Below, piece after piece: positions 43,076 to 64,000 of a stretch of DNA of 64,000 bases. The first letter of the stretch is position 1. Each line of letters starts with the position of its first letter. The notes below the pieces were generated by a model. It worked only from the letters and a program-made list of their open reading frames with translations, had not been told where the DNA came from and ran no database searches. A program made the position numbers and the translations under genes. This stretch comes from Undibacterium umbellatum (GTDB lineage: Bacteria; Pseudomonadota; Gammaproteobacteria; Burkholderiales; Burkholderiaceae_D). Location of the stretch: the NCBI RefSeq assembly GCF_014284125.1, contig NZ_JACOFX010000010.1:1-64000 (forward strand), in the 5' to 3' direction.

Positions 43076-43939
43076 TCATGCAGCACTAGGCATGCTGCCA
43101 GGCAGAATAACCAGCCTTTGTGCAACTTCCTTGCGATAGCGGTTCAAGTCTTGCACAGTTTCAAAAGTGCGTTCAAACAGCAGAGACATATTGTGCAAGA
43201 TGCGGTCAACGACTTTCTTTTCCCATACGCCATCAAACTTGATCTGGCCATCCAGCCAGCGTTCCAGCCAGTCCGGATCGGGCAGGCGTGACTGTATGGT
43301 ATCGTTCGGGAACAACGCCTGATTGACATGCAGGTTGGTCGGGTGCAGCGGCTTTTCCGTACGTCTGGCGGATGCCATCAGGACACCAATTTTGGAAAAT
43401 GCAGCGCGGGCCACATCGCCAGCTTCTGTCAAGGATTTTTTCATGTAGCGCAGATAAGCACCGCCATGGCGTGCCTCATCCTGGCTGATGATTTTGTAGA
43501 TATGTTTGATCACAGGCTCGGTATGCCAGTCAGAGGCGCAGCGATACCAGTGGTTCAGGCGGATTTCACCACAGAAGTGCAGCATCAGTGTTTCCAGCGG
43601 AGGTGCTGGATCAAACTCGAAGCGTACATTGTCGAGCTCTTTTTCCGTCGGCACCAACTCAGGATGGAAGCGGCGCAAGTATTCCATCAAGACCAGAGAA
43701 TGCTTTTGCTCTTCAAAAAACCAGATGGACATGAAGGCGCAAAAGTCACTGTCTCCACGATTATCACGCAAGAACATTTCGGTCGCTGGCAGGGCAGACC
43801 ATTCAGTGATGGCATTCATCTTGATGGTTTGCGCCTGCTCTGGTGTCAATTTGCTGGCGTCATACTTATCCCAGGGGATGTCGGACTCCATATTCCAGCG
43901 TACTTGCTCCAAAGACTTAAACAATTCAGGGTAAAGCAT
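43076..43939 (-). CDS. Ferritin-like di-iron carboxylate protein
   Basis: A 287-residue helical protein with the paired metal motifs of ferritin-like/acyl-ACP desaturase-type di-iron enzymes: EWSALPATEMFL, EEQKH (E-x2-H), CGEIRLNHWY and DEARH (E/D-x2-H). Such proteins use O2 at a di-iron centre for desaturation, hydroxylation or related chemistry. No ACP- or substrate-specific motif can be named. ATG at 43939 follows AGAGG; a TTG two codons earlier is less likely. It lies 129 bases downstream of cysB on the same strand and has its own terminator. Confidence 0.75.
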   Translation of the reverse strand: MLYPELFKSLEQVRWNMESDIPWDKYDASKLTPEQAQTIKMNAITEWSALPATEMFLRDNRGDSDFCAFMSIWFFEEQKHSLVLMEYLRRFHPELVPTEKELDNVRFEFDPAPPLETLMLHFCGEIRLNHWYRCASDWHTEPVIKHIYKIISQDEARHGGAYLRYMKKSLTEAGDVARAAFSKIGVLMASARRTEKPLHPTNLHVNQALFPNDTIQSRLPDPDWLERWLDGQIKFDGVWEKKVVDRILHNMSLLFERTFETVQDLNRYRKEVAQRLVILPGSMPSAA

Positions 43940-50071: not shown

Positions 50072-50396
50072 CTCTAGTCCTGGTAAGTAATAATTTTTAT
50101 GAGGAGTACAGGATAAAACGGTGCCATATAAATTAAAACGAAGTGTTTCGATGTTTTATATGCGATTTAGGCATATAGAGATGTAGATGCCCTAAAACCA
50201 GAATCTCACAACAGAGGTACCCAGCGGGCACAGAAGCGCACAGAGGCATCCGATGTCAATATAGTACGATTTCCATCACGCTGTCGGTTTATCGACAGAA
50301 ACGCGCTGTCTGTGCTCAACTTAATCACTTAGCCTTCAATCCACATATTTCCTCAAGACTGCGCTAAGATGACATCCTCTTCTTTTGGAGTTAACC
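50072..50396. other. Divergent region between sbp and the glutathione peroxidase gene
   Basis: No gene is supported. The sbp-proximal part has the candidate CysB box AAAACGAA (50135-50142) in an AT-rich setting. Around 50208-50246 is a CACAGAG-like stretch (CAACAGAGG, GGCACAGAAG, GCACAGAGGC) that may be a worn third copy of the repeat at 42859 and 52890. Confidence 0.35.
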
Positions 50397-50966
50397 ATGC
50401 TGCGACGCACACCAATACAAGCTGCTCTTTTTCTGAGTTTGATCACTTGCTCCTTGGGAGCATGGGCAGATACCGGTGATGCCTGCCCGGCCGTGCTGAA
50501 CCATAAATTCAAGCGTCTGCAAGATGAAACCCCGCAAGATCTTTGCCAGTACAAGGGCAAGGTTGCACTGGTCGTCAATACTGCGAGTTATTGCGGGTTC
50601 ACCAAGCAGTACGAAGGCCTGGAAGCCATGTACGCCAAATACAATGACAAGGGTCTGGTGGTACTGGGCTTCCCATCCAATGATTTTGGCAGGCAGGAGC
50701 CAGGCAATGACAAGCAAATTGCCGATTTTTGCTTTAATACCTATGGTGTGAAGTTCCCCATGTTCAGCAAATCTGCAGTCAGAGGCAAAGACGTCAATCC
50801 CATGTACGCGCAGATGATCAAGGCGACGGGCACGACACCGAAATGGAATTTTTACAAATATCTGATAGACCGCAAAGGCAATGTCGTGGCCGCCTATTCC
50901 AGCGACACAACTCCAGATGACAAGAAGCTGGTGGCAGACGTAGAGAAAGCCCTGGCAGCGCAATAA
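50397..50966 (+). CDS. Exported glutathione peroxidase-family protein
   Basis: A 189-residue thiol peroxidase with a signal peptide (about 1-24, AALFLSLITCSLGAWA) and the GPx core: peroxidatic Cys66 in NTASYCGFTKQYEGL, FPSNDFGRQEPG (conserved Gln region) and KWNFYKYL (conserved Trp-Asn). The active residue is cysteine, not selenocysteine. It probably reduces hydroperoxides in the periplasm, with thioredoxin-like reductants more likely than glutathione. The ATG at 50397 is preferred over a TTG four codons earlier. It stands alone and converges with the IclR gene. Confidence 0.88.
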   Translation: MLRRTPIQAALFLSLITCSLGAWADTGDACPAVLNHKFKRLQDETPQDLCQYKGKVALVVNTASYCGFTKQYEGLEAMYAKYNDKGLVVLGFPSNDFGRQEPGNDKQIADFCFNTYGVKFPMFSKSAVRGKDVNPMYAQMIKATGTTPKWNFYKYLIDRKGNVVAAYSSDTTPDDKKLVADVEKALAAQ

Positions 50967-50984: not shown

Positions 50985-51779
50985 CTACAGCTTGGGCATA
51001 TGACCCAGCTGACGCGACAAGGAACTGGCACTGGCTCGCAAAGCTTGTGCCAGTTCGCCATTCCAGTCGGTATCAAAACTGCCCTTGGGGCCAGTAGCTG
51101 TAATCACCAGACTTAAGGTGCAGGCATGGTTGAATACCGGCGCGCTGAGGGCATTGATGCCCGGTATGGGCAGGCCCTGTGCCCTCGCCAGACCCTGCAC
51201 ACGTACTTCTGCCAGTACGCTGGCAATATCCCTGCTTGTCAACTGTACACCCGCCTGCCCTATCACCAATTCATCTTCGACTTCCCTGGCGATCACCTTG
51301 TCGACTAGCGCTTGTGGCAAGAAGGCAGAAAACACTAGTCCCGTTGCAGTACCCAGCATGGACATGACAGAGCCCGCATGCATATTCACATGGATGGGGC
51401 GGCTTGATTCTGCGATATACACCACGGTAGGGCCATGGCTGCCCCACACCGCCAGCGCGATGGTTTGATCTGTGGTTGCTGCGAGGCGGGTAATCTCAGG
51501 TATTGCCAGTTTGACGGGTGACATTTGCTGCAGGCTGACCAAACCCATTTGCAAGGCAAAGGGGCCCAGCTGGTAAGCACCAGTCGCCGCATCCTGTTCC
51601 ACCAGACCGAGTTTGCCAAAACTGACCAGATAGGCGTGAGCCTTCGAAGCAGGCATGCCGCTCTCACGAGCCAGATCCCCCAAGGACATGGCACGGCCAG
51701 AACTGACCAGTGCATTCAGGATAAGACCGCCGACTTCTATTGCACCTATGCCGCGTCTTTCCTTGTTTTTTTCAGTCAT
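50985..51779 (-). CDS. IclR-family transcriptional regulator
   Basis: A 264-residue regulator with an N-terminal winged helix (about 10-70, LGDLARESGMPASKAHAYL) and a C-terminal IclR effector domain (about 85-255, TIALAVWGSHGPTVVY, GLARAQGLPIPGINALSAPVF). IclR proteins often control aromatic or organic acid catabolism. It is divergent from the MBL-fold gene, with 135 bases between, and is likely to regulate that module. Confidence 0.88.
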   Translation of the reverse strand: MTEKNKERRGIGAIEVGGLILNALVSSGRAMSLGDLARESGMPASKAHAYLVSFGKLGLVEQDAATGAYQLGPFALQMGLVSLQQMSPVKLAIPEITRLAATTDQTIALAVWGSHGPTVVYIAESSRPIHVNMHAGSVMSMLGTATGLVFSAFLPQALVDKVIAREVEDELVIGQAGVQLTSRDIASVLAEVRVQGLARAQGLPIPGINALSAPVFNHACTLSLVITATGPKGSFDTDWNGELAQALRASASSLSRQLGHMPKL

Positions 51780-51865
51780 GGCTGCCTCTTATTTAATATG
51801 AATTCATTTTACTATTAACAAATGCATTTACAAATAACGAATTAATGCTTATTCTTGTTTTCTGT

Positions 51866-51890
51866 TGCATGCTTCAATTTTAAGCATGCA
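51866..51890. promoter_or_regulatory. Palindrome in the IclR / MBL-fold divergent region
   Basis: A perfect 9-bp inverted repeat (TGCATGCTT / AAGCATGCA) with a 7-base centre, 24 bases before the MBL-fold gene start. It could be the IclR operator or a leader hairpin. No clear promoter boxes can be matched to it. Confidence 0.45.
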
Positions 51891-51914
51891 CTGCACTGAT
51901 TAAAGGATGTTGCC

Positions 51915-52877
51915 ATGACTACCAAACAATTCGCCTCACACGCTGACCTGGAAGAAAAGAAAGTCAGCTTCCAGCAATTATCCGAACATGCCTACGCCTA
52001 TACCGCTGAGGGTGACCCGAATACTGGCATCATCATCGGTGACGATGCCGTCATGGTCATCGATACTCAGGCCACGCCCATCATGGCTCAGGATGTAGTA
52101 CGCCGCATCCGTGAGGTCACTGACAAACCAATCAAATATGTGGTGATGTCACACTACCATGCGGTGCGCGTACTTGGTGCCAGTGGCTATGTGGCTGAAG
52201 GTTTGGAACATATTATTGCCAGCCGCGATACTTTCGACCTGATTGTCGAACGTGGTGATGCGGATATGAAGAGTGAAATAGGCCGCTTCCCGCGCCTGTT
52301 CCGTAATGTTGAAAGCGTGCCTGGACTGACCTGGCCGACGATTACCTTCAAGGGTGAAATGTCGATCTGGCTGGGCAAGCTGGAGGTAAAGCTCATGCAG
52401 GTGGGCCGTGGTCATACCAAGGGAGACACCATCGTCTGGCTGCCACAGGAAAAAGTTTTGTTCTCTGGTGACCTGGTTGAATTTGGCGCGACACCGTATG
52501 CAGGCGATGCCTATTATTCAGACTGGCCGCAAACCCTGAGTAATCTGGAAGCGATGAAAGCCGAGAAACTGGTGCCTGGCCGTGGTGCTGCCCTGACTAC
52601 GCCAGAACTGGTGGCGGCAGGTCTCAGCGAAACCCGTTCTTTCATCAGCGATTTATTCACCAGCGTCAAAGCGGGGCAGCAACAACAGCATGACCTCAAT
52701 ACCATCTACAAGAATACCTACGCCGCTTTGAAACCCAAGTATGGTCACTGGGTGATCTTTGACCATTGCCTGCCGTTTGATGTTACACGTGCTTTTGATG
52801 AAGCATCTGGGCATGTTGATCCACGTGTGTGGACGGCAGAGCGTGATGTGGAGATGTGGAAGAGTTTGGAGGGTTAG
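51915..52877 (+). CDS. MBL-fold protein with a reduced metal site
   Basis: A 320-residue metallo-beta-lactamase-fold protein. The usual HxHxDH motif reads H80-Y-H82-A-V-R85, so the Asp and His of the second metal site are absent. H167 (GRGHTKGD) and D186 (FSGD) are kept, while the late PGHG motif reads PGRG (222-224). One three-histidine metal site therefore remains. My recollection is that close relatives share the HYHAVRV form, so this is probably a family trait rather than decay. AAGGATG lies upstream of the ATG. It is followed by a flavoprotein and DUF2783 gene. Confidence 0.82.
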   Translation: MTTKQFASHADLEEKKVSFQQLSEHAYAYTAEGDPNTGIIIGDDAVMVIDTQATPIMAQDVVRRIREVTDKPIKYVVMSHYHAVRVLGASGYVAEGLEHIIASRDTFDLIVERGDADMKSEIGRFPRLFRNVESVPGLTWPTITFKGEMSIWLGKLEVKLMQVGRGHTKGDTIVWLPQEKVLFSGDLVEFGATPYAGDAYYSDWPQTLSNLEAMKAEKLVPGRGAALTTPELVAAGLSETRSFISDLFTSVKAGQQQQHDLNTIYKNTYAALKPKYGHWVIFDHCLPFDVTRAFDEASGHVDPRVWTAERDVEMWKSLEG

Positions 52878-52889
52878 CATTAAGAGCGT

Positions 52890-53012
52890 CAAGACCTCTC
52901 AACCCAGAGACACGGAGGGAGGAAAGACTGCTTGCAGGCAGACTTCGTTACGCAGGCGAGCGGCATGCTACTCGAATTCCCTGCTACACCACAGAGAAAA
53001 ACAAGAGAAATT
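52890..53012. repeat. Dispersed CACAGAG-type repeat, copy 2
   Basis: The first 22 bases (52890-52911) match the right end of copy 1, read in the opposite direction, at 21 of 22 positions: CAAGACCTCTCAAC, one variable base, then AGAGAC. The rest is more diverged, with CACGGAGG and later CACAGAGAAA plus CAAGAGAA similar to copy 1. Boundaries beyond the conserved end are approximate. It separates the MBL-fold gene from the flavoprotein gene. Confidence 0.65.
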
Positions 53013-53080
53013 CTTTTGCTGTCATGAACCTTCAAATATCTCTGGGTCTTTCGCTTTAATCGCGCCGCAGGAGCCGCATT

Positions 53081-54757
53081 TTGCTTAGCACTTATCAATA
53101 TCAAAAATTCCCTTTCGTGACTCCACCGGAGTTGCAGACCAAGGAAATCACGCGTCGCAAAGTTGTGATAGTCGGTGCTGGTCCCGTGGGTTTGACGGCG
53201 GCGATAGATTGCAAGTTACAGGGACTAGATGTGCTGGTGCTTGATGACGATGATACGGTGTCGGTAGGTTCGCGCGGCTTGTGCTATGCCAAGCGCACGC
53301 TGGAGATACTTGACAGACTGGGCGTGGCAGTGGCGGTACGTAACAAGGGCGTAGAGTGGAATGTAGGGCGTACTTTTTTTCGCAAGGAAGAAGTATTCAA
53401 TTTTAATCTCTTGCCTGCGCCGGATCACAAGCATCCGGGCATGGTGAATTTGCAGCAATACTATCTGGAAGAATTTCTAGTTCAGCGTGCGGTGGAATTA
53501 GGCGTTGAGTTGCGCTGGAAAAACCGTGTCACTGCGATTGAGCGAGATGAAGAATTTTCCACCTTGCAGATAGCCACACCAGAAGGCGATTACAGCTTGC
53601 AAGCCGATTGGCTGATCGCCTGCGATGGTGCGCGCAGCCCCTTGCGCCAGATGCTGGGGCTGGAAGTCGAAGGCAAGGTTTTCATGGATCGTTTCCTGAT
53701 TGCCGATGTCGTCATGAAGGCCGACTTTCCGGCAGAGCGCTGGTTCTGGTTTGATCCACCTTTCCACCCAAATCAATCTGTGCTGCTACACCGTGAAGCC
53801 GACAATGTCTGGCGCATCGATTTTCAACTGGGCTGGGATGCCGACCCGGTGGAAGAACGCAAACCAGAAAACGTGATTCCCCGCATCAAGGCCATGCTTG
53901 GCGATGACAGGGAATTTGAACTCGAATGGGTCAGTGTCTACACCTTCCAGTGCAGGCGCATGGAAAAGTTCCGCCATGGCCGCGTGTTGTTTGCTGGCGA
54001 TGCTGCCCATCAGGTGTCACCCTTCGGCGCGCGTGGTGCCAATTCCGGCATACAGGATGCGGATAATCTGGTGTGGAAATTGAAGCTCGTCGTTGATGGC
54101 AAGGCACCAGCCAAATTGCTGGACACTTATTCAGATGAACGCGTATTTGCAGCCGATGAGAATCTGCTGAACTCGACACGCTCTACTGATTTCATCACGC
54201 CTAAAAGTGCGATCAGCAAGTGCTTTCGCAATGCAGTGTTGAGTCTGGCGCAAGAACATGCGTTTGCCCGCAAGCTGGTGAATTCAGGGCGACTATCTGT
54301 GCCGTCAACTTTATCAACTACTATTTTAAACACACCAGACCACGCCAGCTTTGATACTGCCCTACAAATTGGCGCACCATTTGAAGATGGGCCAGTCAGT
54401 ACTCAAAGTGGAACAGGTTTCCTGATCGATTACTTGCAGCCTGTTTTTCATGGCCTGTATTTCTGTGATGCCGTATCTGACATACCAGCTGCACATCTGG
54501 CTGCGATAAAGACTTTGGAACACGAAGCAATTCCAGTAGTCACGCTCATCATTTGCAAACAGGAAGGCGCGCTTGATGCCCACCTGATCCTGACTGATAC
54601 CAAGGGCTTGCTGCACCAGCGCTATGGCGCAGAAAATGGCAGCTATCACTTGTTGAGGCCAGATCAACATCTGACTGCACGCTGGCAGAAATTTGAAGTG
54701 AATCACATCCTTCGTGCAGTACAAACTGCATGCGGCAACTCATCAGGAGTGGCATGA
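53081..54757 (+). CDS. FAD-dependent aromatic-type monooxygenase
   Basis: A 558-residue class A flavoprotein monooxygenase-like protein. It has the FAD-binding GxGxxG in VVIVGAGPVGLTAAI (about 29-43), the DG motif CDGARSPLRQMLG, the GD motif VLFAGDAAHQVSPFGARG, and a C-terminal thioredoxin-like domain (about 400-558) as in phenol or hydroxybenzoate hydroxylases. Substrate unknown. The start is a TTG at 53081 with GGAG upstream. Its stop overlaps the DUF2783 start by ATGA. Confidence 0.85.
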   Translation: MLSTYQYQKFPFVTPPELQTKEITRRKVVIVGAGPVGLTAAIDCKLQGLDVLVLDDDDTVSVGSRGLCYAKRTLEILDRLGVAVAVRNKGVEWNVGRTFFRKEEVFNFNLLPAPDHKHPGMVNLQQYYLEEFLVQRAVELGVELRWKNRVTAIERDEEFSTLQIATPEGDYSLQADWLIACDGARSPLRQMLGLEVEGKVFMDRFLIADVVMKADFPAERWFWFDPPFHPNQSVLLHREADNVWRIDFQLGWDADPVEERKPENVIPRIKAMLGDDREFELEWVSVYTFQCRRMEKFRHGRVLFAGDAAHQVSPFGARGANSGIQDADNLVWKLKLVVDGKAPAKLLDTYSDERVFAADENLLNSTRSTDFITPKSAISKCFRNAVLSLAQEHAFARKLVNSGRLSVPSTLSTTILNTPDHASFDTALQIGAPFEDGPVSTQSGTGFLIDYLQPVFHGLYFCDAVSDIPAAHLAAIKTLEHEAIPVVTLIICKQEGALDAHLILTDTKGLLHQRYGAENGSYHLLRPDQHLTARWQKFEVNHILRAVQTACGNSSGVA

Positions 54758-54990
54758 TGCCTTTGAACCTGCAAGCGAATTTCCATTACCCCGCCAAATC
54801 TGCGCAGCGCGATTACAGCGCTGGTGATGATTTTTATCAGCTATTGATAGACTCCCATCGCGAGCTTAGTGATGAAGCCAGTGCGGCCCTGAATGCCAGA
54901 CTGATCTTGCTATTGGCAAATCACATCGGCGACATCAGCATCTTGCAGGAAGCCTTGCGCCTTTCAAAAGAAAACAATTCATCAAGCTGA
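54754..54990 (+). CDS. DUF2783 protein
   Basis: A 78-residue protein with the DUF2783 pattern: DDFYQLLIDSHRELSDEASAALNARLILLLANHIGD. It overlaps the flavoprotein stop by four bases (ATG at 54754, AGGAG upstream), and this pairing recurs in related genomes, suggesting a subunit or helper of the monooxygenase. Its function is not known. It converges with the TetR gene. Confidence 0.82.
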   Translation: MMPLNLQANFHYPAKSAQRDYSAGDDFYQLLIDSHRELSDEASAALNARLILLLANHIGDISILQEALRLSKENNSSS

Positions 54991-54995
54991 CTGCT

Positions 54996-55616
54996 TTAGG
55001 TTTTTCTCGCATCATTTGACAAAAAACCACCTATGGTTGCATGTACCATGGCATCGACTATCTGTTCATGTGTCAGGCGCTTGTCGCGCATGAGAAATTC
55101 CATGGTCGGGTCACAAGCGCGTGAATACAGGGTATAGACCAGCACATCATCCGGCACCAGCGGCGTCAATGCGCCCTGCTCTCTGGCTTGCGCCACCAGC
55201 GCATAAAAACGTTTATTGACACGCAGGGCCACCATCACATAATCGAGATTCAGCATCAGGCTGCGCTGCAAGGCCAGGCTGGTGGACGGCAGGTGTGGCA
55301 CGCCCCCCTGCAGGCGCAAGCGCAAGGACCAGGCCAGGATGTGCCTGATCTTGTCTATCGCTGGCATGTCGACCGCCAAGGTATCCAGTTCAGCCTGGGT
55401 TGCTTTCAGCAGCCGCGTCATGGCCGCACCCGCCAGCTTTTCCTTGGATGAAAAATGCTTGTACAGGCTGCCCTTGGCTATGCCCACCGCATCGGCGACA
55501 TCATCCATGGTCATCAAGTCATAACCTTTTTCTGATAAAAGGCGATTGACAGCATCAATGATGGCTTCTTCACGCGCATCAAACTGTTGTTTTTTAAAAG
55601 GAATACGGATTTCCAT
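54996..55616 (-). CDS. TetR-family transcriptional regulator
   Basis: A 206-residue regulator with an N-terminal TetR helix-turn-helix (about 14-60, MDDVADAVGIAKGSLYKHFSSKEKL) and a helical ligand domain. It is divergent from the lipid-modification cluster. Its promoter is covered by a perfect 26-bp palindrome, so it is very likely autoregulated and probably controls the cluster. The inducer is unknown; a fatty acid or lipid product is plausible. Confidence 0.9.
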   Translation of the reverse strand: MEIRIPFKKQQFDAREEAIIDAVNRLLSEKGYDLMTMDDVADAVGIAKGSLYKHFSSKEKLAGAAMTRLLKATQAELDTLAVDMPAIDKIRHILAWSLRLRLQGGVPHLPSTSLALQRSLMLNLDYVMVALRVNKRFYALVAQAREQGALTPLVPDDVLVYTLYSRACDPTMEFLMRDKRLTHEQIVDAMVHATIGGFLSNDARKT

Positions 55617-55645
55617 TATTTTTTCTGCACAAATAAAAACTTTGT

Positions 55646-55673
55646 AGTATATTTTGTGACTGATGAGTCACAA
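55646..55673 (-). promoter_or_regulatory. Promoter of the tetR gene
   Basis: On the minus strand TTGTGA (55668-55673) is separated by 16 bases from TATACT (55646-55651). The start codon is about 30 bases downstream. Nearly the whole promoter lies within the palindromic operator. Confidence 0.55.
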
Positions 55674-55676
55674 AAT
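55651..55676. promoter_or_regulatory. Palindromic operator, probable TetR-family site
   Basis: Perfect 11-bp arms ATTTTGTGACT and AGTCACAAAAT flank a 4-base centre (GATG). The palindrome spans the -35 to -10 region of the tetR promoter and is 225 bases upstream of the divergent FAD oxidoreductase gene. Confidence 0.8.
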
Positions 55677-55901
55677 GAAATTGACGGTCATATTTTAACC
55701 CAAGACGACATTTTTACCAGGTAAATTATTGAGCGAAGCAGATTGAGTGTGGCTAATCGATAAGGCGCATGAATCCAATCAGCCCTTATTTGCGTATCTA
55801 TAGATGTGCATGGATGACACCCAAGGCACTGCCGGGACGATTCCGCTAATAGATTCATCAATATGTGTTACTTTTACTAATATTCTGAACAGATACAGAT
55901 T

Positions 55902-57203
55902 ATGAAAATCGCAGTCATCGGTTCCGGCATCTCCGGCCTGTCTTGCGCCTACGAGCTTTCTAAAGCTGGGCATGAAATCAGCCTGTTTGAGGCCAATGAT
56001 TACTTTGGCGGGCATACGCATACCGTCGATGTCAGCCTGGAAGGCAAGACCTATGGCGTTGATACCGGCTTCCTGGTGTTCAACCACAAGACCTATCCAA
56101 ACCTGGTCAATTTATTCAAGGAGCTTGACATCGCGACTGTTGCGACCGACATGTCTTTCTCTGTCAAAATGCCAGTGAGCAATAATAGGGGCCGCCTGCT
56201 GGAATGGGCTGGAGCCAATCTGGATACGGTGTTTGCCCAGCGCCGCAATCTGCTCAACCCGGCGTTTATACGCATGTTGCGCGATATCCTGCGCTTTAAT
56301 AAACAGACTACTGCGCTGGCAACGACGAAAAATCATCCCGACTTCATGCAGCCTCTGGGCAGCTTTCTCGACCAGCATGGCTACAGTAAAGAATTCCGCG
56401 CATGGTATTTGTTGCCGATGGCAGCCTGTATCTGGTCCTGCCCTACCGAGACCATGATGGCATTTCCGCTATCTTCTTTCGTGAATTTCTGCCACAACCA
56501 TGGCTTGCTGCAAGTAAATGACAGGCCACAGTGGCAAACCGTTCAAGGTGGCGCGAGGCAGTATGTGGAAAAGATCCTGCCTCGGATTGCACACAGGCAT
56601 TTGCAAACGCCGGTGTTAAGTGTGCAAGAAAAAGCACCAGGCGCAATCACAGTCCAGACCGCACATGGCACGCAAACGTTTGAGCATGTAGTGTTAGCCA
56701 GCCATAGCGACCAAAGCCTGAAATTGCTGATTGATGCCGACCTGGCTGAGCGTCAGATTCTGTCGGCGGTCAAGTACCAGCCCAATCGCGCAGTGCTGCA
56801 TACCGATGCCAGTGTCTTGCCTGAACATAAAAAAGCCTGGTCGGCCTGGAATTACCAAAGTGAAAGCGGTAACGAGCCACGTGTCTGCGTGCATTACCTG
56901 ATTAATCAATTGCAACCCCTGCCATTCAAGACACCCGTAATTGTCACCTTGAATCCAATTCAAGAACCGGCAGCGGCCAGTATTATCAATAGCTTTGACT
57001 ATTCTCATCCTGTATTTGACGCGCTGGCAATCAATGCACAAAACCAGTTGGTCAATATTCAGGGCAGGAGAAATATCTGGTTCGCCGGTGCCTGGACAGG
57101 CTATGGCTTCCATGAAGATGGCTTGAAATCTGGCCTGCGTGTCGCAGAGTGCATACTCGCGCGTGCAGAAGCAGCCTACGAACGTATGACGCGTGCGGCA
57201 TGA
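55902..57203 (+). CDS. FAD/NAD(P)-binding oxidoreductase (amine-oxidase fold)
   Basis: A 433-residue flavoprotein with an N-terminal Rossmann motif MKIAVIGSGISGLSCAYEL and EANDYFGGHTHTVD, and a C-terminal FAD signature IWFAGAWTGYGFHEDGLKSG. It belongs to the group often called FAD-dependent amine oxidases that sits with DUF1365 and cyclopropane-synthase-like genes; in furan fatty acid producers a flavoprotein desaturase of this kind acts on methylated acyl chains. That role here is inferred from context. Its stop overlaps the DUF1365 start (ATGA). Confidence 0.85.
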   Translation: MKIAVIGSGISGLSCAYELSKAGHEISLFEANDYFGGHTHTVDVSLEGKTYGVDTGFLVFNHKTYPNLVNLFKELDIATVATDMSFSVKMPVSNNRGRLLEWAGANLDTVFAQRRNLLNPAFIRMLRDILRFNKQTTALATTKNHPDFMQPLGSFLDQHGYSKEFRAWYLLPMAACIWSCPTETMMAFPLSSFVNFCHNHGLLQVNDRPQWQTVQGGARQYVEKILPRIAHRHLQTPVLSVQEKAPGAITVQTAHGTQTFEHVVLASHSDQSLKLLIDADLAERQILSAVKYQPNRAVLHTDASVLPEHKKAWSAWNYQSESGNEPRVCVHYLINQLQPLPFKTPVIVTLNPIQEPAAASIINSFDYSHPVFDALAINAQNQLVNIQGRRNIWFAGAWTGYGFHEDGLKSGLRVAECILARAEAAYERMTRAA

Positions 57204-58009
57204 ACACGCCAGCCACCAAATCTGCTGTCACCTTATGTACAGGCGAAGTCATGCACAAGCGCTTGCGCCCGGCAAAAAACGCATTTCGCTATGGCGTGTT
57301 TTTCATCCGAGTGCCTGTGCGTGACATCGGTCATATGAGCACACCCGCACTGTTTTCCGTGAACCGCTTTAATGCCCTGTCTTTCCATGAACGTGACCAT
57401 GGTGATGCTCGCCAGCCGCTGGCACTATGGATAGATGGATTGTTGCGAAGCGAGGGCATCACAGATGCCGACGGCGAGATTTGCTTGCAATGCTTCCCCA
57501 GGGTGTTTGGCTTTGTGTTTAATCCAGTGTCTTTCTGGTTTTGTCATCACCAGGATGGCAGCTTGCGTGCCGTGGTGTGCGAAGTACGCAATACCTTTGG
57601 TGAGAAGCATTTATACCTGCTAGAGAATGGTGGCAGGCTGGCCAATGGCGAAGAGTTGCAAGCCAGGAAAATCTTCCATGTTTCGCCCTTCTGCAAGGTG
57701 GAAGGTAACTATCGCTTCCGTTTCATGCAAGCCCAGCAAGAGACGGCAGAGACAACTGCAGAACACACGCAGAAAAAATACCTGGCCAGAATTGACTATG
57801 CCGATGCTGAAGGTCCGCTATTACTCACCAGCGTTTCTGGCCGAGAACAGCACATGAGTAACACTCACATAGCCAAGGTCATGTTGCGCTACCCCTTCAT
57901 GACTATCGGCGTGGTGCTACGCATTCACCTACAAGCACTGCGCCTGTGGATCAAGCGAGTACCCTTTATTTCCAAACCTATTCCTCCTTCTGAAGAGTTA
58001 AGCCGATGA
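57200..58009 (+). CDS. DUF1365 protein
   Basis: A 269-residue DUF1365 member. Family stretches include GEVMHKRLRPAKNAFRYGVF, FNALSFHERDHGD, LQCFPRVFGFVFNPVSFWFC and VRNTFGEKHLYLL. Function is not established; it almost always sits between the FAD oxidoreductase and the cyclopropane-synthase-like gene. ATG at 57200 overlaps the upstream stop, and its own stop overlaps the next start. Confidence 0.9.
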   Translation: MNTPATKSAVTLCTGEVMHKRLRPAKNAFRYGVFFIRVPVRDIGHMSTPALFSVNRFNALSFHERDHGDARQPLALWIDGLLRSEGITDADGEICLQCFPRVFGFVFNPVSFWFCHHQDGSLRAVVCEVRNTFGEKHLYLLENGGRLANGEELQARKIFHVSPFCKVEGNYRFRFMQAQQETAETTAEHTQKKYLARIDYADAEGPLLLTSVSGREQHMSNTHIAKVMLRYPFMTIGVVLRIHLQALRLWIKRVPFISKPIPPSEELSR

Positions 58010-59271
58010 GCAGCCTACATCCCACTTTTGCCTCTGGCACTGCAAGCGCTGACAACAACGCCACAGTCAACACCCAACTGAATAGCAAGCATTTTCCAGC
58101 GCAAGCGAGGTTCGTCCTCAGCCTGCTGAACAAACTTGAGCATGGCTGCCTGACCATACAGTTCCCGGATGGACAAACTGCCAGCTTTGGCCGCGCGTCA
58201 GAAGGATGGCAGCACGTTAGCCTGCATTTGAAAGACTGGGAGCTGTATCGTGCGGTACTCAAGTCAGGTGACATCGGCTTTGCCGAAAGTTATATCGCCG
58301 GCCACTGGAGCACCAGCAGCCTGGCTGGCTTGATAGAACTAATCTCACATAATCGCCAGCAACTGGAAAGCGTGATTTATGGCAGTTGGTGGGGCAACCT
58401 TGTCTATAGGCTAAAGCATCTGCTGAACCGCAATTCCCGCACAGGCAGCAAGAAAAATATTCACGCTCATTACGACATAGGCAATGAATTCTACAAGCTG
58501 TGGCTGGACCCATCGATGACTTACTCCAGTGCGATTTATGCTGGCGAGCAAGACCAATCACTGGAAGAAGCACAACAGGCAAAATATCGCCGCATACTGG
58601 AGCAACTGGCATTACCAAAAAACGCCAGGGTGCTGGAAATTGGTTGTGGCTGGGGCGGCTTTGCTGAGATGGCGATACGGGATGCAGGTGCCCACGTCAC
58701 TGGTCTGACGCTCTCTACCGAACAATTGCAATATGCCCAAGCGCGCCTGCACAATGCTGGCCTGCATGCAAAGAGTGATTTGAAGATAGAGGATTATCGA
58801 GACGCGAATGGCAACTATGACGCAATCGCTTCCATAGAAATGTTTGAAGCAGTTGGTGAAGCTTACTGGCCAGGTTATTTTGAATGCCTGCACCGCAACC
58901 TGAAACAGGACGGCCGTGCATGCGTGCAAAGCATCGTCATTGCAGATGAGTTATTCGACCGTTACCGCAAGGGTACGGACTTTATACAGCAATACATCTT
59001 CCCCGGCGGCATGCTGCCATCCATAGAAAAATTTCACGCCATGGCAGCAAACTACGGCATGGAAGTACTTGATACCTTCAATTTTGGCCTCGACTATGCA
59101 CGCACCCTGCTGCACTGGCGTCATGCCTTCATGGAAAAACTGGCGCAGGTCAAGACGCAGAACTTTGATGATGAATTCTTGCGTACCTGGGAATTTTATC
59201 TGGCTTATTGCGAAGCAGGTTTCCGTGCTGGCAGCATCAATGTCACTCAATTCACACTGAGGAAAAAATGA
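58006..59271 (+). CDS. Cyclopropane-fatty-acid-synthase-like methyltransferase
   Basis: A 421-residue SAM-dependent methyltransferase acting on unsaturated acyl chains of phospholipids. It has the N-terminal lipid-binding part (about 30-140), IHAHYDIGNEFYKLWLDPSM, the SAM motif LEIGCGWGGFAEMA, EMFEAVGEAYWPGYF, and the active-site region SIVIADELFDRYRKGTDFIQ with IFPGGMLPS. In related clusters this enzyme makes cyclopropane or methylated acyl chains. Its last bases overlap the start of the chalcone-isomerase-like gene. Confidence 0.92.
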   Translation: MSSLHPTFASGTASADNNATVNTQLNSKHFPAQARFVLSLLNKLEHGCLTIQFPDGQTASFGRASEGWQHVSLHLKDWELYRAVLKSGDIGFAESYIAGHWSTSSLAGLIELISHNRQQLESVIYGSWWGNLVYRLKHLLNRNSRTGSKKNIHAHYDIGNEFYKLWLDPSMTYSSAIYAGEQDQSLEEAQQAKYRRILEQLALPKNARVLEIGCGWGGFAEMAIRDAGAHVTGLTLSTEQLQYAQARLHNAGLHAKSDLKIEDYRDANGNYDAIASIEMFEAVGEAYWPGYFECLHRNLKQDGRACVQSIVIADELFDRYRKGTDFIQQYIFPGGMLPSIEKFHAMAANYGMEVLDTFNFGLDYARTLLHWRHAFMEKLAQVKTQNFDDEFLRTWEFYLAYCEAGFRAGSINVTQFTLRKK

Positions 59272-59846
59272 CTACCCTGCCATTGATACGTAGCTTGTGT
59301 TTGTCGCTGTTGCTTGCAGCGACAGCGATGACTGTGCATGCCGAAGACAAGCCGACAAACTCAGCACCTGCACATATCAGTGAGGAAATTCCGCAAGCCA
59401 GCTTGCAGGGAACAGGCAGTTTTCGCTGGTTTGGCCTGCATATTTACGACGCAAGCTTGTGGTCTGTACCTGAAGGCTATAAGCCGGAAAGTGAGAAGCC
59501 ACAAAAGTTTGCATTGGACCTGGCCTATGCCCGCACTTTGTATGGCAGCAAAATCGCCGATGCCAGCATAGATGAAATAGAAAAGCTCAAGCTAGGCACA
59601 GTCGAAAAGCGGGAGCGCTGGCTAGCACAGATGAAGAAAATTTTCCCGGACGTAAAACAGGGTACACACATCACCGGCATTCATATACCGAATGAAGCAG
59701 CCAGATTTTATCTGAATGGAAAATTGCTGGGTGAGATACGCGATGCTGAATTTGCCCATGCTTTCTTTGCGATATGGCTGGACAAAAAAACCACGGCACA
59801 GAGTTTACGTAACAAGCTGCTAGGCAGCAAATCCGCAGGCAATTAA
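59268..59846 (+). CDS. Chalcone-isomerase-like exported protein
   Basis: A 192-residue protein with a signal peptide (about 1-25, LCLSLLLAATAMTVHA) and a chalcone-isomerase-like domain: QGTGSFRWFGLHIYDASLW, FALDLAYARTLYGSKIAD and FYLNGKLLGEIRDAEFAHAFFAIWL. Bacterial relatives bind fatty acids rather than chalcones, which suits this lipid cluster. It overlaps the methyltransferase gene by four bases. Confidence 0.85.
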   Translation: MTTLPLIRSLCLSLLLAATAMTVHAEDKPTNSAPAHISEEIPQASLQGTGSFRWFGLHIYDASLWSVPEGYKPESEKPQKFALDLAYARTLYGSKIADASIDEIEKLKLGTVEKRERWLAQMKKIFPDVKQGTHITGIHIPNEAARFYLNGKLLGEIRDAEFAHAFFAIWLDKKTTAQSLRNKLLGSKSAGN

Positions 59847-59884
59847 GCACTCCGCCAAAACGAACACTCACATCAGGAAAGCAT

Positions 59885-60436
59885 ATGTTCAAGCAAACTT
59901 ACCGATTATTTTTCTGCAGCCTGATAATGCTACTGACATCCTGTGCCAGCCAGTATGAGCCCGGCCGCTACCGCAACGAAGTCCCCAAATTGGACATGCA
60001 AAGCTATTTCAATGGCAAGCTTGATGCCTGGGGCATATTCCAGGACAGGTCAGGTGCCATCGTCAAACGCTTTACCGTAGTCATGGATTGCCAGTGGTCA
60101 GGTGATATTGGCACGCTCAATGAAGACTTTACTTACTCAGATGGGAGCAAGCAAAAACGCATCTGGACTTTGAAAAAAGTAGGGAATGATCAATTTACCG
60201 GCACCGCCTCAGATGTCATAGGCGAAGCCAAAGGACAGGTGTCCGGCAACACCCTGCACTGGAATTATGTGCTGGCCTTGCCTGTCGATGGCAGCGTCTA
60301 TAACGTGGATTTTGACGACACCATGGTCTTGATGGATGACAAAGTAATGCTGAACCGTGCCATCATGCGCAAATTTGGAGTTGAGCTCGGCAGCGTGACT
60401 CTCTCTTTCACCAAACGTAGTAACACCACACCATGA
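59885..60436 (+). CDS. DUF3833 lipoprotein
   Basis: A 183-residue lipoprotein with lipobox LLTSC (lipid Cys20) and the DUF3833 pattern YFNGKLDAWGIFQDRSG, FTVVMDCQW and RIWTLKKVG. The fold is thought to be lipocalin-like. It would sit in the cell envelope and may carry or bind the modified lipid (inference). It lies 38 bases after the previous gene and overlaps the SDR start by four bases. Confidence 0.88.
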   Translation: MFKQTYRLFFCSLIMLLTSCASQYEPGRYRNEVPKLDMQSYFNGKLDAWGIFQDRSGAIVKRFTVVMDCQWSGDIGTLNEDFTYSDGSKQKRIWTLKKVGNDQFTGTASDVIGEAKGQVSGNTLHWNYVLALPVDGSVYNVDFDDTMVLMDDKVMLNRAIMRKFGVELGSVTLSFTKRSNTTP

Positions 60437-61200
60437 ACCCCGTCATCCGCGACTGGCAGGGTAAACGCATCTGGATCATCGGTGCATCCAGCGGCATAGG
60501 GGAAGAAACTGCCAGGCTGTTGCTGACGCTGGGTGCCAGGGTCGCACTGTCAGCCCGAAAACTGGTGCAACTGAAAAAAATTGCGGCTGACTACCCGATG
60601 GCCGAAGCCATGGCAGTAGATATTTGCGATCACGCCAGCTTGGTCGCTTGTCATGCGCACTTGATTGAAAAATGGGGCAGCATAGACTTGGTACTTGTCG
60701 TTGCCGGTAGCTACAATGAAATGCGGGCAGACAGCCTTGATCTTGCCGCAGTCAACAGGCTGATAGATATTAATGTGCGCGGGGTTTACCAATGCCTGGA
60801 TGCCGTCTTGCCTGCGCTGCTAAAGCAGGGTTGCGGTGGTATCGGTATAGTTGGATCAGTAGCTGGCCTCTCTGGATTGCCCAAGGCACTGGTATACGGG
60901 CCAACCAAGGCCGCCATCATCAATTTGTGTGAATGTCTGTATCTGGATTTACGTCCTAAAAATATTGCGGTGTATATGATTAATCCAGGCTTTGTTGAAA
61001 CACCGATGACAGCAGGGAATGATTTCAAGATGCCCGCCCTGATGAGCGCGCCAGCAGCGGCTCTGGCCATCGTCAAGGGTATGCAGCGAGGCGACTTTCA
61101 CATACACTTTCCCCATCGCTTTACCAACTGGTTGAGGTTGGCGCGCCTGCTACCTTACCGCAGCTATTTTTATCTGGTTCATAAGGTGACAGGTTTATAA
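60433..61200 (+). CDS. Short-chain dehydrogenase/reductase
   Basis: A 255-residue SDR with the cofactor motif GASSGIGEE (about 17-25), the catalytic Ser in GIVGSVAG and the Tyr-Lys pair in YGPTKAA. It probably uses NADP(H) (Arg in SARK), but the substrate is unknown. It is translationally linked to the DUF3833 gene before it and abuts the NTF2-like gene after it. Confidence 0.9.
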   Translation: MNPVIRDWQGKRIWIIGASSGIGEETARLLLTLGARVALSARKLVQLKKIAADYPMAEAMAVDICDHASLVACHAHLIEKWGSIDLVLVVAGSYNEMRADSLDLAAVNRLIDINVRGVYQCLDAVLPALLKQGCGGIGIVGSVAGLSGLPKALVYGPTKAAIINLCECLYLDLRPKNIAVYMINPGFVETPMTAGNDFKMPALMSAPAAALAIVKGMQRGDFHIHFPHRFTNWLRLARLLPYRSYFYLVHKVTGL

Positions 61201-61644
61201 ATGTCGACTACTCTTGATCATCAAGCCAGCCTGGACAAGCTGATAGTTTTCTTTGAAACCATTTCACTGAAGACTTGCCAGAACTTGTCTGGCATCTATA
61301 CAGAAGATGCCTATTTCAAAGACCCCTTCAACGAACTGCGCGGGCTGCCTGCCATCAACCATGTATTCCAGCACATGTTTGTGCAAGTTCGTGAACCGCG
61401 TTTTCGCGTTACTTCATCGGTTTTGCAAAACGATACTGCCTTTCTGGTCTGGGAGTTTTTGTTTACGATGAAAAACTTCAATGCTGCGCCACAATGCATA
61501 CGGGGAGCTACACATATACGCTTTGCTGCTGATGGTCGGGTGAATTTTCACCGCGATTATTGGGATGCGGCGGAAGAGTTGTACGAGAAGCTGCCCTTGC
61601 TGGGCAGCCTCATGCGCTTTTTGAAAAGGCAGGCACGCAAATAA
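61201..61644 (+). CDS. NTF2-like (SnoaL-type) protein, last gene of the lipid cluster
   Basis: A 147-residue protein of the NTF2 fold: IYTEDAYFKDPFNELRG, VFQHMFVQVREPRF and GATHIRFAADGRVNFHRDYWD. NTF2-like proteins are small cone-shaped enzymes or binding proteins. Its start codon immediately follows the SDR stop. Homologues are regular members of FAD-oxidoreductase/DUF1365/methyltransferase clusters. Function unknown. Confidence 0.85.
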   Translation: MSTTLDHQASLDKLIVFFETISLKTCQNLSGIYTEDAYFKDPFNELRGLPAINHVFQHMFVQVREPRFRVTSSVLQNDTAFLVWEFLFTMKNFNAAPQCIRGATHIRFAADGRVNFHRDYWDAAEELYEKLPLLGSLMRFLKRQARK

Positions 61645-61674: not shown

Positions 61675-62103
61675 CTATTTAGATGCTTTATAGGCTGGCA
61701 GATACTGCGCCAATCTCGCACCCATTTCCTGCCCAAGCGCTTGTAAGCCGCTCATGGGCCTGACCATGACTTCAAAATCAACAATCTTGCCATCGGCATC
61801 AAAGCGTATCATGTCTATGCCTTTGAGTTGCTTGTCACCGACATTGGCACTGAATTCCAGGACGATATTCAAGCCATCATCAGAAGACAACTCGCGATGA
61901 TAAGTAAAATTTTCAAACACCTGGGCCACCGTACTGAGTATCAGCACGACAGCCTGGGCACTGGTATAGGGCTGGTGCGCCATGGGAGAACGAAACACAG
62001 CATTAGCATGCACGATGGATGGCAAGGAACTCAGGTCTTTATTGGCAATCATCTCATGCCAGGTTTGCAGGGAAGCGGCGACAGTTGCAGGTACATTGTT
62101 CAT
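61675..62103 (-). CDS. NTF2-like (SnoaL-type) protein
   Basis: A 142-residue NTF2-fold protein (TVAASLQTWHEMIANKDLSS, VHANAVFRSPMAHQPY, GIDMIRFDADGKIVDFEVMVRP). It converges with the lipid cluster and follows the 2,4-dienoyl-CoA reductase on the same strand, so it is not part of the cluster operon. Three successive ATGs (62109, 62106 and 62103) follow GAAAGG; the last has the best spacing. Function unknown. Confidence 0.75.
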   Translation of the reverse strand: MNNVPATVAASLQTWHEMIANKDLSSLPSIVHANAVFRSPMAHQPYTSAQAVVLILSTVAQVFENFTYHRELSSDDGLNIVLEFSANVGDKQLKGIDMIRFDADGKIVDFEVMVRPMSGLQALGQEMGARLAQYLPAYKASK

Positions 62104-62187
62104 CATCATCCTTTCGGTATTGCATTTAACATTGATCAAACGGGGTCTGAATAAAGTGAGTTCATCCTGAATGGCGATTTGCTATCT

Positions 62188-64000
62188 TCAGATTGTTGCT
62201 GCCAGACGTGTGCCCTGATTGATGGCACGTTTCGCATCGAGTTCGGCAGCCACATCTGCACCGCCAATCAAGTGCACAGGTTTTCCTTCGGCTTCCAGTG
62301 CAGCTTGCAAATCGCGCCTAGGTTCCTGACCTGCACACAGAATCACATTATCGACAGGCAGCAGCTTTTGCTCGCCACCGATGGTGACATGCAAACCAGC
62401 ATCGTCTATCTTGTCATAGCTGACACCAGCGATCATTTGCACTTCGCGGTTTTTCAAACCTGTACGGTGTATCCAGCCCGTGGTTTTACCGAGGCCATCA
62501 CCAACCTTGGAGGTCTTGCGTTGCAACAGGAAAATCTGGCGTGCTGGTTTTTCCAGCTGTGCGGCGCGCAAGCCACCGACGTTTTTATAGTCGGTATCAA
62601 TACCCCATTCTGCGTAGAATTTTTCTGGGTCCAGACTCGGGCTGGTGCCGCTATGGCTCAGGTATTCTGCAACGTCAAAACCTATGCCGCCTGCGCCTAT
62701 GATGGCGACGGATTTGCCTACTGTTTTCTTATCACGCAAAACATCCAGATAACTCAGGACTTTGGCATGTTCTATGCCTTCGATAGGAGGAACACGTGGG
62801 GTGATGCCCGTTGCCAGCACGACTTCATCAAAGTCTGCCAGGTCAGCCACATCGACCTTGGTATTCAACTTGAGCGTGACGCCGGTTAGCTCTATCTGTT
62901 TTCCGAAATAGCGCAGAGTTTCATAAAACTCTTCTTTGCCCGGCACTTGCTTGGCAATATTGAACTGGCCGCCAATTTCAGAACCGGCATCAAACAGTGT
63001 CACGGCATGGCCGCGATTGGCTGCGGTCGTGGCAAAGCTCAAACCGGCTGGGCCAGCACCAACTACAGCAATGCGCTTGGCTTTTTCCAGAGGCGCATCA
63101 ACCAGTTCTGTCTCATGGCAGGCGCGTGGATTGACCAGGCAGGACGTCACCTTGCCGCCAAAAGTGTGATCCAGGCAGGCCTGGTTGCAACCTATGCAGG
63201 TATTGATCTCGTCTGCCCTGCCCTCTTGCGCCTTGCGCATGAACAGCGGGTCTGCCAGCAGTGGGCGTGCCATTGAGACCATGTCGCAATAATCTCCTGC
63301 CAGTAACTGCTCGGCAATTTCAGGAGTATTGATGCGGTTGGTAGCGATCAGGGGAATATTCACCTGGCCTTTGAGCTTTTTCGTCACCCAGGCAAAAGCT
63401 GCGCGCGGCACCTTGGTGGCAATGGTTGGGATACGTGCTTCATGCCAGCCTATGCCAGTATTGATAATCGTCGCACCGGCTGCTTCTATGGCTTTGGCCA
63501 GTTGCGTGACTTCTTCCAGGGTAGAACCACCATCGACCAGATCCAGCATGGACAGGCGGTAGATGATGATGAAGTTGGCACCCACTTTTTCGCGTATGCG
63601 GCGTACGATTTCTATAGGGAAGCGGATACGGTTTTCATAGGCACCGCCCCATTCATCATCGCGCTGGTTTGTGCAGGCGGCGATGAATTCATTGATCAGG
63701 TAACCTTCCGAGCCCATGACTTCGACACCATCATAGCCAGCTGATTGCGCCAGTGCGGCACAGCGGACAAAATCAGAGATGGTTTCTTCGACTTCTTCTG
63801 TCGTCAGTGCATGCGGTTTGAAAGGATTGATCGGTGCCTTGATAGCGCTGGGTGCGACCAGAGTAGGCTGGTAAGAATAACGGCCAAAATGCAAAATCTG
63901 CATGGCGATCTTGCCACCTTCATCGTGTACGGCCTTGGTGACTATCTTATGGTGTTCTGCTTCTGCTTCAGTAGTGAGCATGGCACCGCCATGCATGGGA
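62188..64000 (-). CDS. fadH: NADPH-dependent 2,4-dienoyl-CoA reductase, partial
   Basis: The C-terminal 604 residues of an Old Yellow Enzyme-type iron-sulfur flavoprotein; the N-terminus is beyond the window. Features are the FMN barrel (ILHFGRYSYQP, AGYDGVEVMGSEGYLINEF, INTGIGWHEARIP), the 4Fe-4S cysteines (CIGCNQAC, then a Cys 12 residues later), and an FAD/NADPH domain with VVGAGPAGLSFA and IIGAGGIGFDVAEY. FadH reduces 2,4-dienoyl-CoA during beta-oxidation of polyunsaturated fatty acids. Its position next to the lipid cluster may be a functional link. Confidence 0.93.
   Translation of the reverse strand, partial: PMHGGAMLTTEAEAEHHKIVTKAVHDEGGKIAMQILHFGRYSYQPTLVAPSAIKAPINPFKPHALTTEEVEETISDFVRCAALAQSAGYDGVEVMGSEGYLINEFIAACTNQRDDEWGGAYENRIRFPIEIVRRIREKVGANFIIIYRLSMLDLVDGGSTLEEVTQLAKAIEAAGATIINTGIGWHEARIPTIATKVPRAAFAWVTKKLKGQVNIPLIATNRINTPEIAEQLLAGDYCDMVSMARPLLADPLFMRKAQEGRADEINTCIGCNQACLDHTFGGKVTSCLVNPRACHETELVDAPLEKAKRIAVVGAGPAGLSFATTAANRGHAVTLFDAGSEIGGQFNIAKQVPGKEEFYETLRYFGKQIELTGVTLKLNTKVDVADLADFDEVVLATGITPRVPPIEGIEHAKVLSYLDVLRDKKTVGKSVAIIGAGGIGFDVAEYLSHSGTSPSLDPEKFYAEWGIDTDYKNVGGLRAAQLEKPARQIFLLQRKTSKVGDGLGKTTGWIHRTGLKNREVQMIAGVSYDKIDDAGLHVTIGGEQKLLPVDNVILCAGQEPRRDLQAALEAEGKPVHLIGGADVAAELDAKRAINQGTRLAATI

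Follow-up and report, generated by a model that had tools for sequence, protein, structure and literature searches.

Known furan fatty acid systems and the Undibacterium locus

Furan fatty acids are antioxidant lipids for which bacterial genes were found recently, and the control described so far is by light and singlet-oxygen systems. Work on Rhodobacter sphaeroides and Rhodopseudomonas palustris (PMC7380195) describes a pathway in which cis-vaccenoyl phospholipid is first methylated by UfaM and then desaturated by UfaD (RSP1091); the insertion of the O2-derived oxygen that closes the furan is ascribed, as a proposal, to UfaO (RSP1090), which belongs to the DUF1365 family. Together, the R. 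palustris homologues RPA2571-2570-2569 are reported there to be enough to yield the furan in R. sphaeroides. The RpoE regulon of R. sphaeroides, which responds to singlet oxygen, lists the fasciclin gene RSP1409 together with ufaM, ufaD and ufaO, and the photolyase gene phrA stands in the same table (PMC7074977, Table 1). In Pseudomonas, a ufaM region is placed under light control by the LitR-type regulators PplR/PmlR (PMC9758184). We describe here a related cluster in a 64,000-nucleotide stretch of the genome of Undibacterium umbellatum (the window, meaning the whole stretch). Enzymatically it is a known kind of system. The regulator is new: a TetR-family protein with a predicted operator, in the place where many relatives have LitR or ChrR. 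We consider it probable that this is a ufaD-ufaO-ufaM furan fatty acid operon with accessory genes, under a divergent TetR-type repressor released by a lipid signal, and that the regulatory cassette was inserted within Undibacterium.

Seven genes on the forward strand (55902-61644) look like a single operon, and the regulator gene is divergent from them:

54996-55616, reverse strand: TetR-family regulator (W-type, see below), divergent; PF00440 (TetR_N, 3.4e-16)
55902-57203, forward strand: UfaD-like flavin adenine dinucleotide (FAD) oxidoreductase, predicted methyl-acyl desaturase; PF01593 (amine-oxidase-like, 1.7e-26)
57200-58009, forward strand: UfaO-like DUF1365 protein, predicted O2-dependent furan-forming oxygenase; PF07103 (1.7e-79)
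58006-59271, forward strand: UfaM-like S-adenosylmethionine-dependent methyltransferase (CMAS); PF02353 (3.2e-86)
59268-59846, forward strand: chalcone-isomerase-like protein, accessory; PF16036 (Chalcone_3, 1.6e-16)
59885-60436, forward strand: DUF3833 protein, accessory; PF12915 (5.1e-67)
60433-61200, forward strand: short-chain dehydrogenase (SDR), accessory; PF00106 (adh_short, 2.7e-40)
61201-61644, forward strand: SnoaL/NTF2-like protein, accessory; PF12680 (SnoaL_2, 8.4e-13)

All of the lipid-modification genes named by an earlier, sequence-only reading of this DNA were recovered at 54996-61644 by domain matches. The four-base overlaps that it described occur at four of the six operon junctions, but not between the chalcone-isomerase-like and DUF3833 genes (a 38-base gap) or between the SDR and SnoaL-like genes, which are flush. 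The host genome (a 6.46 Mb draft in 103 contigs, estimated to be 100% complete) has a single DUF1365 match and one strong match for the CMAS methyltransferase, the four other CMAS matches being partial and weak. DUF1365 is present in 114 of 195 genomes of the host's family. Our family survey covered 100 of the 113 other DUF1365 loci (13 of the 15 lowest-scoring were left out), and FAD and DUF1365 genes occur together in all 100. Thus, the gene set is far beyond chance.

The first three genes belong to the three protein families of the ufaM-ufaD-ufaO pathway and have the order FAD-DUF1365-CMAS, as in RPA2571-2570-2569 (PMC7380195). The window differs from the clusters described there in having TetR as the neighbor, rather than RpoE-ChrR, and in its extra chalcone-isomerase-like and SnoaL genes. 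A transporter gene occurs at some place in the cluster at 73 of the 100 family loci; the window lacks one between its chalcone-isomerase-like and DUF3833 genes. The Pseudomonas region likewise has UfaM, an FAD oxidoreductase and an SDR beside its regulator (PMC9758184).

Enzymes and predicted product

As stand-ins for the characterised R. sphaeroides and R. palustris proteins we used three loci of the same layout (L239, L240 and L242); at L239 and L240, which have the R. sphaeroides layout, ChrR scores above its cut-off. The UfaD-like and UfaO-like proteins are 42.6% and 38.3% identical to the FAD and DUF1365 proteins of L239, and the UfaM-like protein is 44.5% identical to the CMAS protein of L242. 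Given the match of the first three genes to ufaD-ufaO-ufaM, the product to expect is a methyl-furan acyl chain, and the cluster probably serves to convert membrane fats to furan fats with antioxidant action. This supports the lipid-modification reading. By analogy with the known pathway, UfaM would add a methyl group at the cis double bond in the 18:1 (or 16:1) chains of phospholipids, UfaD would then add a second, trans double bond, and UfaO would insert oxygen from O2, closing a methyl-furan ring that would act as a scavenger of reactive oxygen.

The sequence-only reading had allowed for a methylated, a cyclopropane or a furan chain. Its cyclopropane option, a conventional system in which CMAS forms the cyclopropane rings and the remaining genes are accessory, appears very unlikely. 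The protein does match the CMAS Pfam family, the matches to Cfa models span most of each model, and the solved structures nearest by sequence are Cfa enzymes. However, its scores against three NCBIfam Cfa models (276.6, 272.1 and 234 bits) are below the curated equivalog cut-offs of 600, 400 and 650 bits. At the positions of His266 and Cys139 of E. coli Cfa (reference sequence from MG1655), two residues of its bicarbonate site, the window methyltransferase has Gln308 and Ser175, so that neither residue is conserved; the site's Glu, Ile and Tyr are retained. When the proteins are aligned with E. coli Cfa, Gln replaces His266 in 169 of 170 rows and Ser replaces Cys139 in 158 of 170, and His266 is kept in all 13 CMAS paralogues. 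The sole exception to Gln is L234, a low-scoring paralogue that is also counted among the 13.

The tree of CMAS proteins agrees with these residues. It places the methyltransferase in a ufaDO-linked, cluster-type clade of 169 rows (support 0.947) that includes neither E. coli Cfa nor any of the Cfa-type paralogues. In this tree UfaM is represented by cluster-linked stand-ins, not by a characterised protein, and L078, L107 and L111 were dropped beforehand. The active site is thus UfaM-type rather than Cfa-type as judged from the alignment, and the protein is no standard cyclopropane synthase. We rejected a cyclopropane operon as the main reading on the grounds of this active site, the clade and the missed Cfa cut-offs. 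The Gln-for-His change may separate ufaM from cfa genes, the products of which are alike by domain. In PMC12089945, E. coli with a Halomonas UfaM, whose gene comes from a run of consecutive ufaDOM genes, showed a peak assigned to 11-methyl-octadec-12-enoate; the E. coli overexpressing it also contained cyclic fatty acids, and E. coli has its own cfa.

The product may be other than a simple furan, if the accessory proteins alter the lipid further or if the pathway halts at the methylated ene. In favor of this, most of the 100 relatives share the four additional enzymes or lipid-binding folds. However, RSP1087-1089, which may or may not correspond one to one to the extra genes of the window, are dispensable for the R. 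sphaeroides furan product (PMC7380195), and we consider a modified or truncated product unlikely. The methyl-furan chain is the product that we favor. Among the matches listed in our literature search, there were no relevant published fatty acid profiles of Undibacterium.

The TetR-type regulator and its predicted operator

We compared the regulators present at related loci. In the family survey, 42 of the 100 loci include a LitR-type MerR/B12 regulator in the stretch examined, a divergent TetR is present at 19, and 39 lack both; ChrR was found at none. Judged by coordinates, a TetR match lies no more than about 2.5 kb from each of the 13 family loci that were left out. Across the phylum, DUF1365 is present in 153 of 398 genomes, from which 60 loci were hand-picked for spread. 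ChrR lies within the stretch at 28 of the 60 and strong LitR at five (seven loci with only weak MerR-like matches, of 32-121 bits, were not scored as LitR). This kind of TetR occurs at three, all in the host's order. The tie to an RpoE-ChrR singlet-oxygen response that the sequence-only reading drew therefore stands as kinship of clusters and in the 28 phylum loci, but not for the host's family, where LitR is commonest and ChrR was not seen.

A look for rpoE-chrR in the host genome gave no ChrR match; the cognate extracytoplasmic function sigma factor and its promoter motif were not searched. Weak TIGR02451 matches occur in 57 of the 195 family genomes, all under the cut-off, and were not accepted as ChrR. 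LitR likewise has no match in the host genome at an E value of 1e-15, and none in any of the 11 genomes of the genus that were searched. Unlike the Pseudomonas system, the locus implies no B12- or LOV-based sensor, and unlike the sigma/anti-sigma control of RpoE-ChrR, its regulator is a predicted one-component repressor. Two clusters of the same genus (L044 and L046, in genomes G085 and G154) have no TetR, LitR or ChrR that we could find at the locus. Among the open-access literature matches listed, we saw no link of TetR to ufa genes.

The TetR that we call W-type is found in the window and in 12 named Undibacterium genomes, four of which are the genomes of L040-L043. Proteins 79-98% identical to the window TetR occur in Undibacterium and Massilia, with that of Undibacterium pigrum DSM 19792 at 98%. 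An older W-type group (61-68%) is found next to ufa in records from Rhodocyclaceae and from other betaproteobacteria (L264-L267 and L270, of which L267 and L270 are on separate contigs of a single metagenome genome). B-type TetRs are 43-48% identical to that of the window, and the first three enzymes of the clusters they adjoin are 40-56% identical.

The region between tetR and ufaD has the following predicted features:

55651-55676: operator palindrome with 11-base arms, ATTTTGTGACT-GATG-AGTCACAAAAT; from genome scan, alignment and upstream control
55626-55653, forward strand: rightward promoter-like site TGCACA-16-TATATT, towards ufaD; in a block conserved in W-type loci
55646-55673, reverse strand: leftward promoter-like site TTGTGA-16-TATACT for tetR, overlapping the operator; consensus match only
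55686-55690, forward strand: extra conserved half-site GGTCA beside the operator; from promoter alignment

W-type promoters have ATTTTGTGACT-GATG-AGTCACAAAAT or variants of it, and many B-type promoters have GCTACT-NATN-AGTAGC near the tetR start. All 20 aligned W-type-clade promoters (one promoter per genome) have the motif TGACY-N4-RGTCA, at a distance of 57-59 bases from one and the same codon of TetR. In 17 rows of the Undibacterium/Massilia type, this motif is within a longer conserved block that includes a TGNACA-16-TATATT-like rightward promoter and a GGTCA-like half-site. Two fasciclin rows keep the block less strictly, and three older-group rows keep the operator and little of the promoter. 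The W core was found in the 350 bases before ufaD at four of 98 loci (window excluded), exactly the four with a W-type TetR; the B core (up to 2 mismatches) was found at nine of 98, all within the 15 B-type TetR loci. The 24-base core of the window operator is the sole site in the genome at up to 2 mismatches. One further, A-rich site appears at 3 mismatches, where a reversed control pattern gives three, and a shorter core occurs once, equal to its reversed control.

A candidate palindromic operator thus lies on the divergent promoters, as expected of a TetR one-component repressor, and this bears out the placement of TetR in the regulator position by the sequence-only reading. We propose that a TetR dimer would bind the palindrome at 55651-55676. 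Because the palindrome covers the rightward -10 and start as well as the tetR promoter, TetR would repress in both directions.

It is conceivable, though unlikely, that TetR controls its own gene only, and that transcription of ufaD starts at a promoter of its own within the 225 bases that separate it from the operator. The leader from the operator block to ufaD is long and unconserved, and the TetR-less clusters L044 and L046 must be expressed without TetR, both of which would fit. Running counter to it, the block conserved in Undibacterium and Massilia rows extends through the rightward -10 and operator to the further half-site towards ufaD, and the same block faces fasciclin genes. In the three older-group rows, the operator is retained but the promoter mostly is not.

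A second alternative, which we regard as highly improbable, is that TetR responds to a xenobiotic or aromatic compound tied to upstream genes. Monooxygenase, DUF2783 and metallo-hydrolase genes adjoin tetR in the window, in L040/L252 and in L261, and two of them do so in L251. At the remaining W-type loci examined, however, these catabolic genes are absent from the available flanks, yet the TetR, operator and ufa genes are kept; we accordingly disfavored TetR as part of the upstream catabolic genes. Between the peroxidase gene described below and tetR, window positions 50985-54990 encode an IclR-like regulator, a metallo-hydrolase-like protein, an FAD monooxygenase (PRK08132-type) and a DUF2783 protein. 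The last three are also found in the close kin of the window, and the region is likely a catabolic insertion.

The AlphaFold model of the window TetR (predicted local distance difference test score 88.9) has the TetR fold. The folds nearest to it include FadR and KstR2, which are lipid-responsive repressors of the TetR family (TM-score about 0.6, 14-19% identity); many other TetR proteins score like these two.

Histories of regulator and enzymes, and the proposed signal

In a tree of the concatenated enzymes, the W clusters (support 0.999) are sister to the TetR-less L044 and L046 of the same genus (support 1.0), and together they nest within a clade whose other clusters have either LitR or no regulator that could be found. 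This tree has 169 rows, after removal of L078, L107, L114, L131, L267 and any row in which one of the three genes was missing. An IQ-TREE repeat with 35 hand-picked rows of the 169 gave the same placement of the W enzymes, and the approximately unbiased (AU) test on these rows rejected joining them with the older W-type or the B-type enzymes (p-AU 1e-97 and 6e-50). In the TetR tree, W-type and older-group proteins form one clade (support 1.0). These trees show that the enzymes and the regulator have different histories.

The gene order before ufaD is informative about how the regulator may have arrived. The window has a related gene upstream:

50385-50966, forward strand: glutathione-peroxidase-like gene, whose relatives directly precede ufaD in the TetR-less sisters, displaced here; from sequence match

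Its best NCBIfam model scores 165.5 bits, below the cut-off of 270, and further genes separate it from tetR. In L044 and L046, the glutathione peroxidase gene (gpx) directly precedes ufaD, and in L041-L043 tetR lies between them; L042 also retains a desaturase-like gene upstream. Because of this arrangement, it is most likely that tetR, with its promoter and operator, was inserted before a resident operon within Undibacterium. The cassette would have entered between gpx and ufaD, and the regulator was apparently acquired within the genus.

W-type TetRs also occur beside another kind of gene. In genomes G094 and G170, and in U. baiyunense and U. nitidum, a TetR 79-83% identical to that of the window, with a similar operator, is divergent from a fasciclin gene. 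The RpoE-ChrR regulon (PMC7074977) contains both neighbor kinds of the W-type TetR, ufa and fasciclin genes. A photolyase-like gene is directly beside tetR in three of the 15 B-type loci. Because one TetR lineage adjoins several members of one stress regulon, a related signal is suggested for it, such as oxidised membrane lipid. Membrane photo-oxidation is, by this analogy, the likeliest signal, and a lipophilic product of it would most likely be what releases TetR. Fasciclin had no match in the window genome.

FastTree nodes favor movement of TetR from fasciclin to ufa; we regard this direction as unproved, as the TetR tree leaves the order of the ufa-linked and fasciclin-linked states unsettled. 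One locus, L156, is labelled fasciclin-linked in that tree with its neighbor unchecked. In four other genomes of the family (L152, L153, L154 and L166), a B-type-related TetR is divergent from a gene that reads by eye as fasciclin-like; no palindrome, shared or B-type, was found in these four promoters. The reading of neighbors left aside seven further TetR matches away from ufa.

Several observations weigh against a TetR-repressed, lipid-responsive operon acquired in this way. Judged by consensus, the rightward promoter is a weak one; it is some 250 bases upstream of ufaD, and a promoter scan alone was not above chance (2 sites, with a mean of 1.3 in shuffles). With as many as 2 mismatches allowed, the B palindrome is seen at only nine of the 15 B-type loci, and it is missing from five B-type-related promoters that are not next to ufa. 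The clusters L044 and L046 manage without any regulator that we found, and single-gene trees of DUF1365 and CMAS put them inside W; one tetR gain followed by loss in these two is therefore a possible alternative to insertion after their divergence. Holding the W and older ufa-linked TetRs together was not rejected (p-AU 0.151, with 36 of the 72 TetR rows). The fold search identifies no particular ligand. Finally, fasciclin was found in one of five W-type genomes searched, and the shared-regulon argument is therefore a cross-species one.

A broader idea, which we put forward tentatively and think more doubtful than the proposal for this locus, is that a betaproteobacterial TetR family is a one-component sensor of oxidised membrane lipid. 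It would replace sigmaE-ChrR and LitR, and would have been joined repeatedly, with its own operator, to members of the photo-oxidative regulon (furan operon, fasciclin, photolyase). If so, lipid defence would answer lipid damage directly, rather than light or singlet oxygen. The combination of the enzymes with a simple repressor and predicted operator, in a genome with no LitR or ChrR match, makes both the signal and the switching of trigger of a stress operon testable. Near relatives with tetR, without tetR, or with tetR facing fasciclin are natural controls.

Several neighboring genes are also of note. A desaturase-like protein flanks the cluster in many relatives:

43109-43939, reverse strand: desaturase-like protein; PF03405 on the relative in L120, 93% identical to the L044 protein

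The window protein has no NCBIfam match. Relatives in L115, L117, L120 and L121 are on the operon strand, about 3.5-4 kb past the ufaD start, and the protein may act in the same lipid pathway.

Convergent to the operon are a second SnoaL-like gene (61675-62106, reverse strand) and a long oxidoreductase gene (62188-63996, reverse strand) that by eye reads like a 2,4-dienoyl-CoA reductase. The reductase-like gene is present, whole or partial, in 14 of 16 W-type rows and 10 of 12 genomes, the flanks being short in several, and is not found in the sisters L044 and L046. At L126 and L133, which have a B-type TetR, a second CMAS gene and DUF1295-like and lipocalin-like genes (read by eye) lie beyond tetR, and a second chalcone-isomerase-like gene precedes ufaD.

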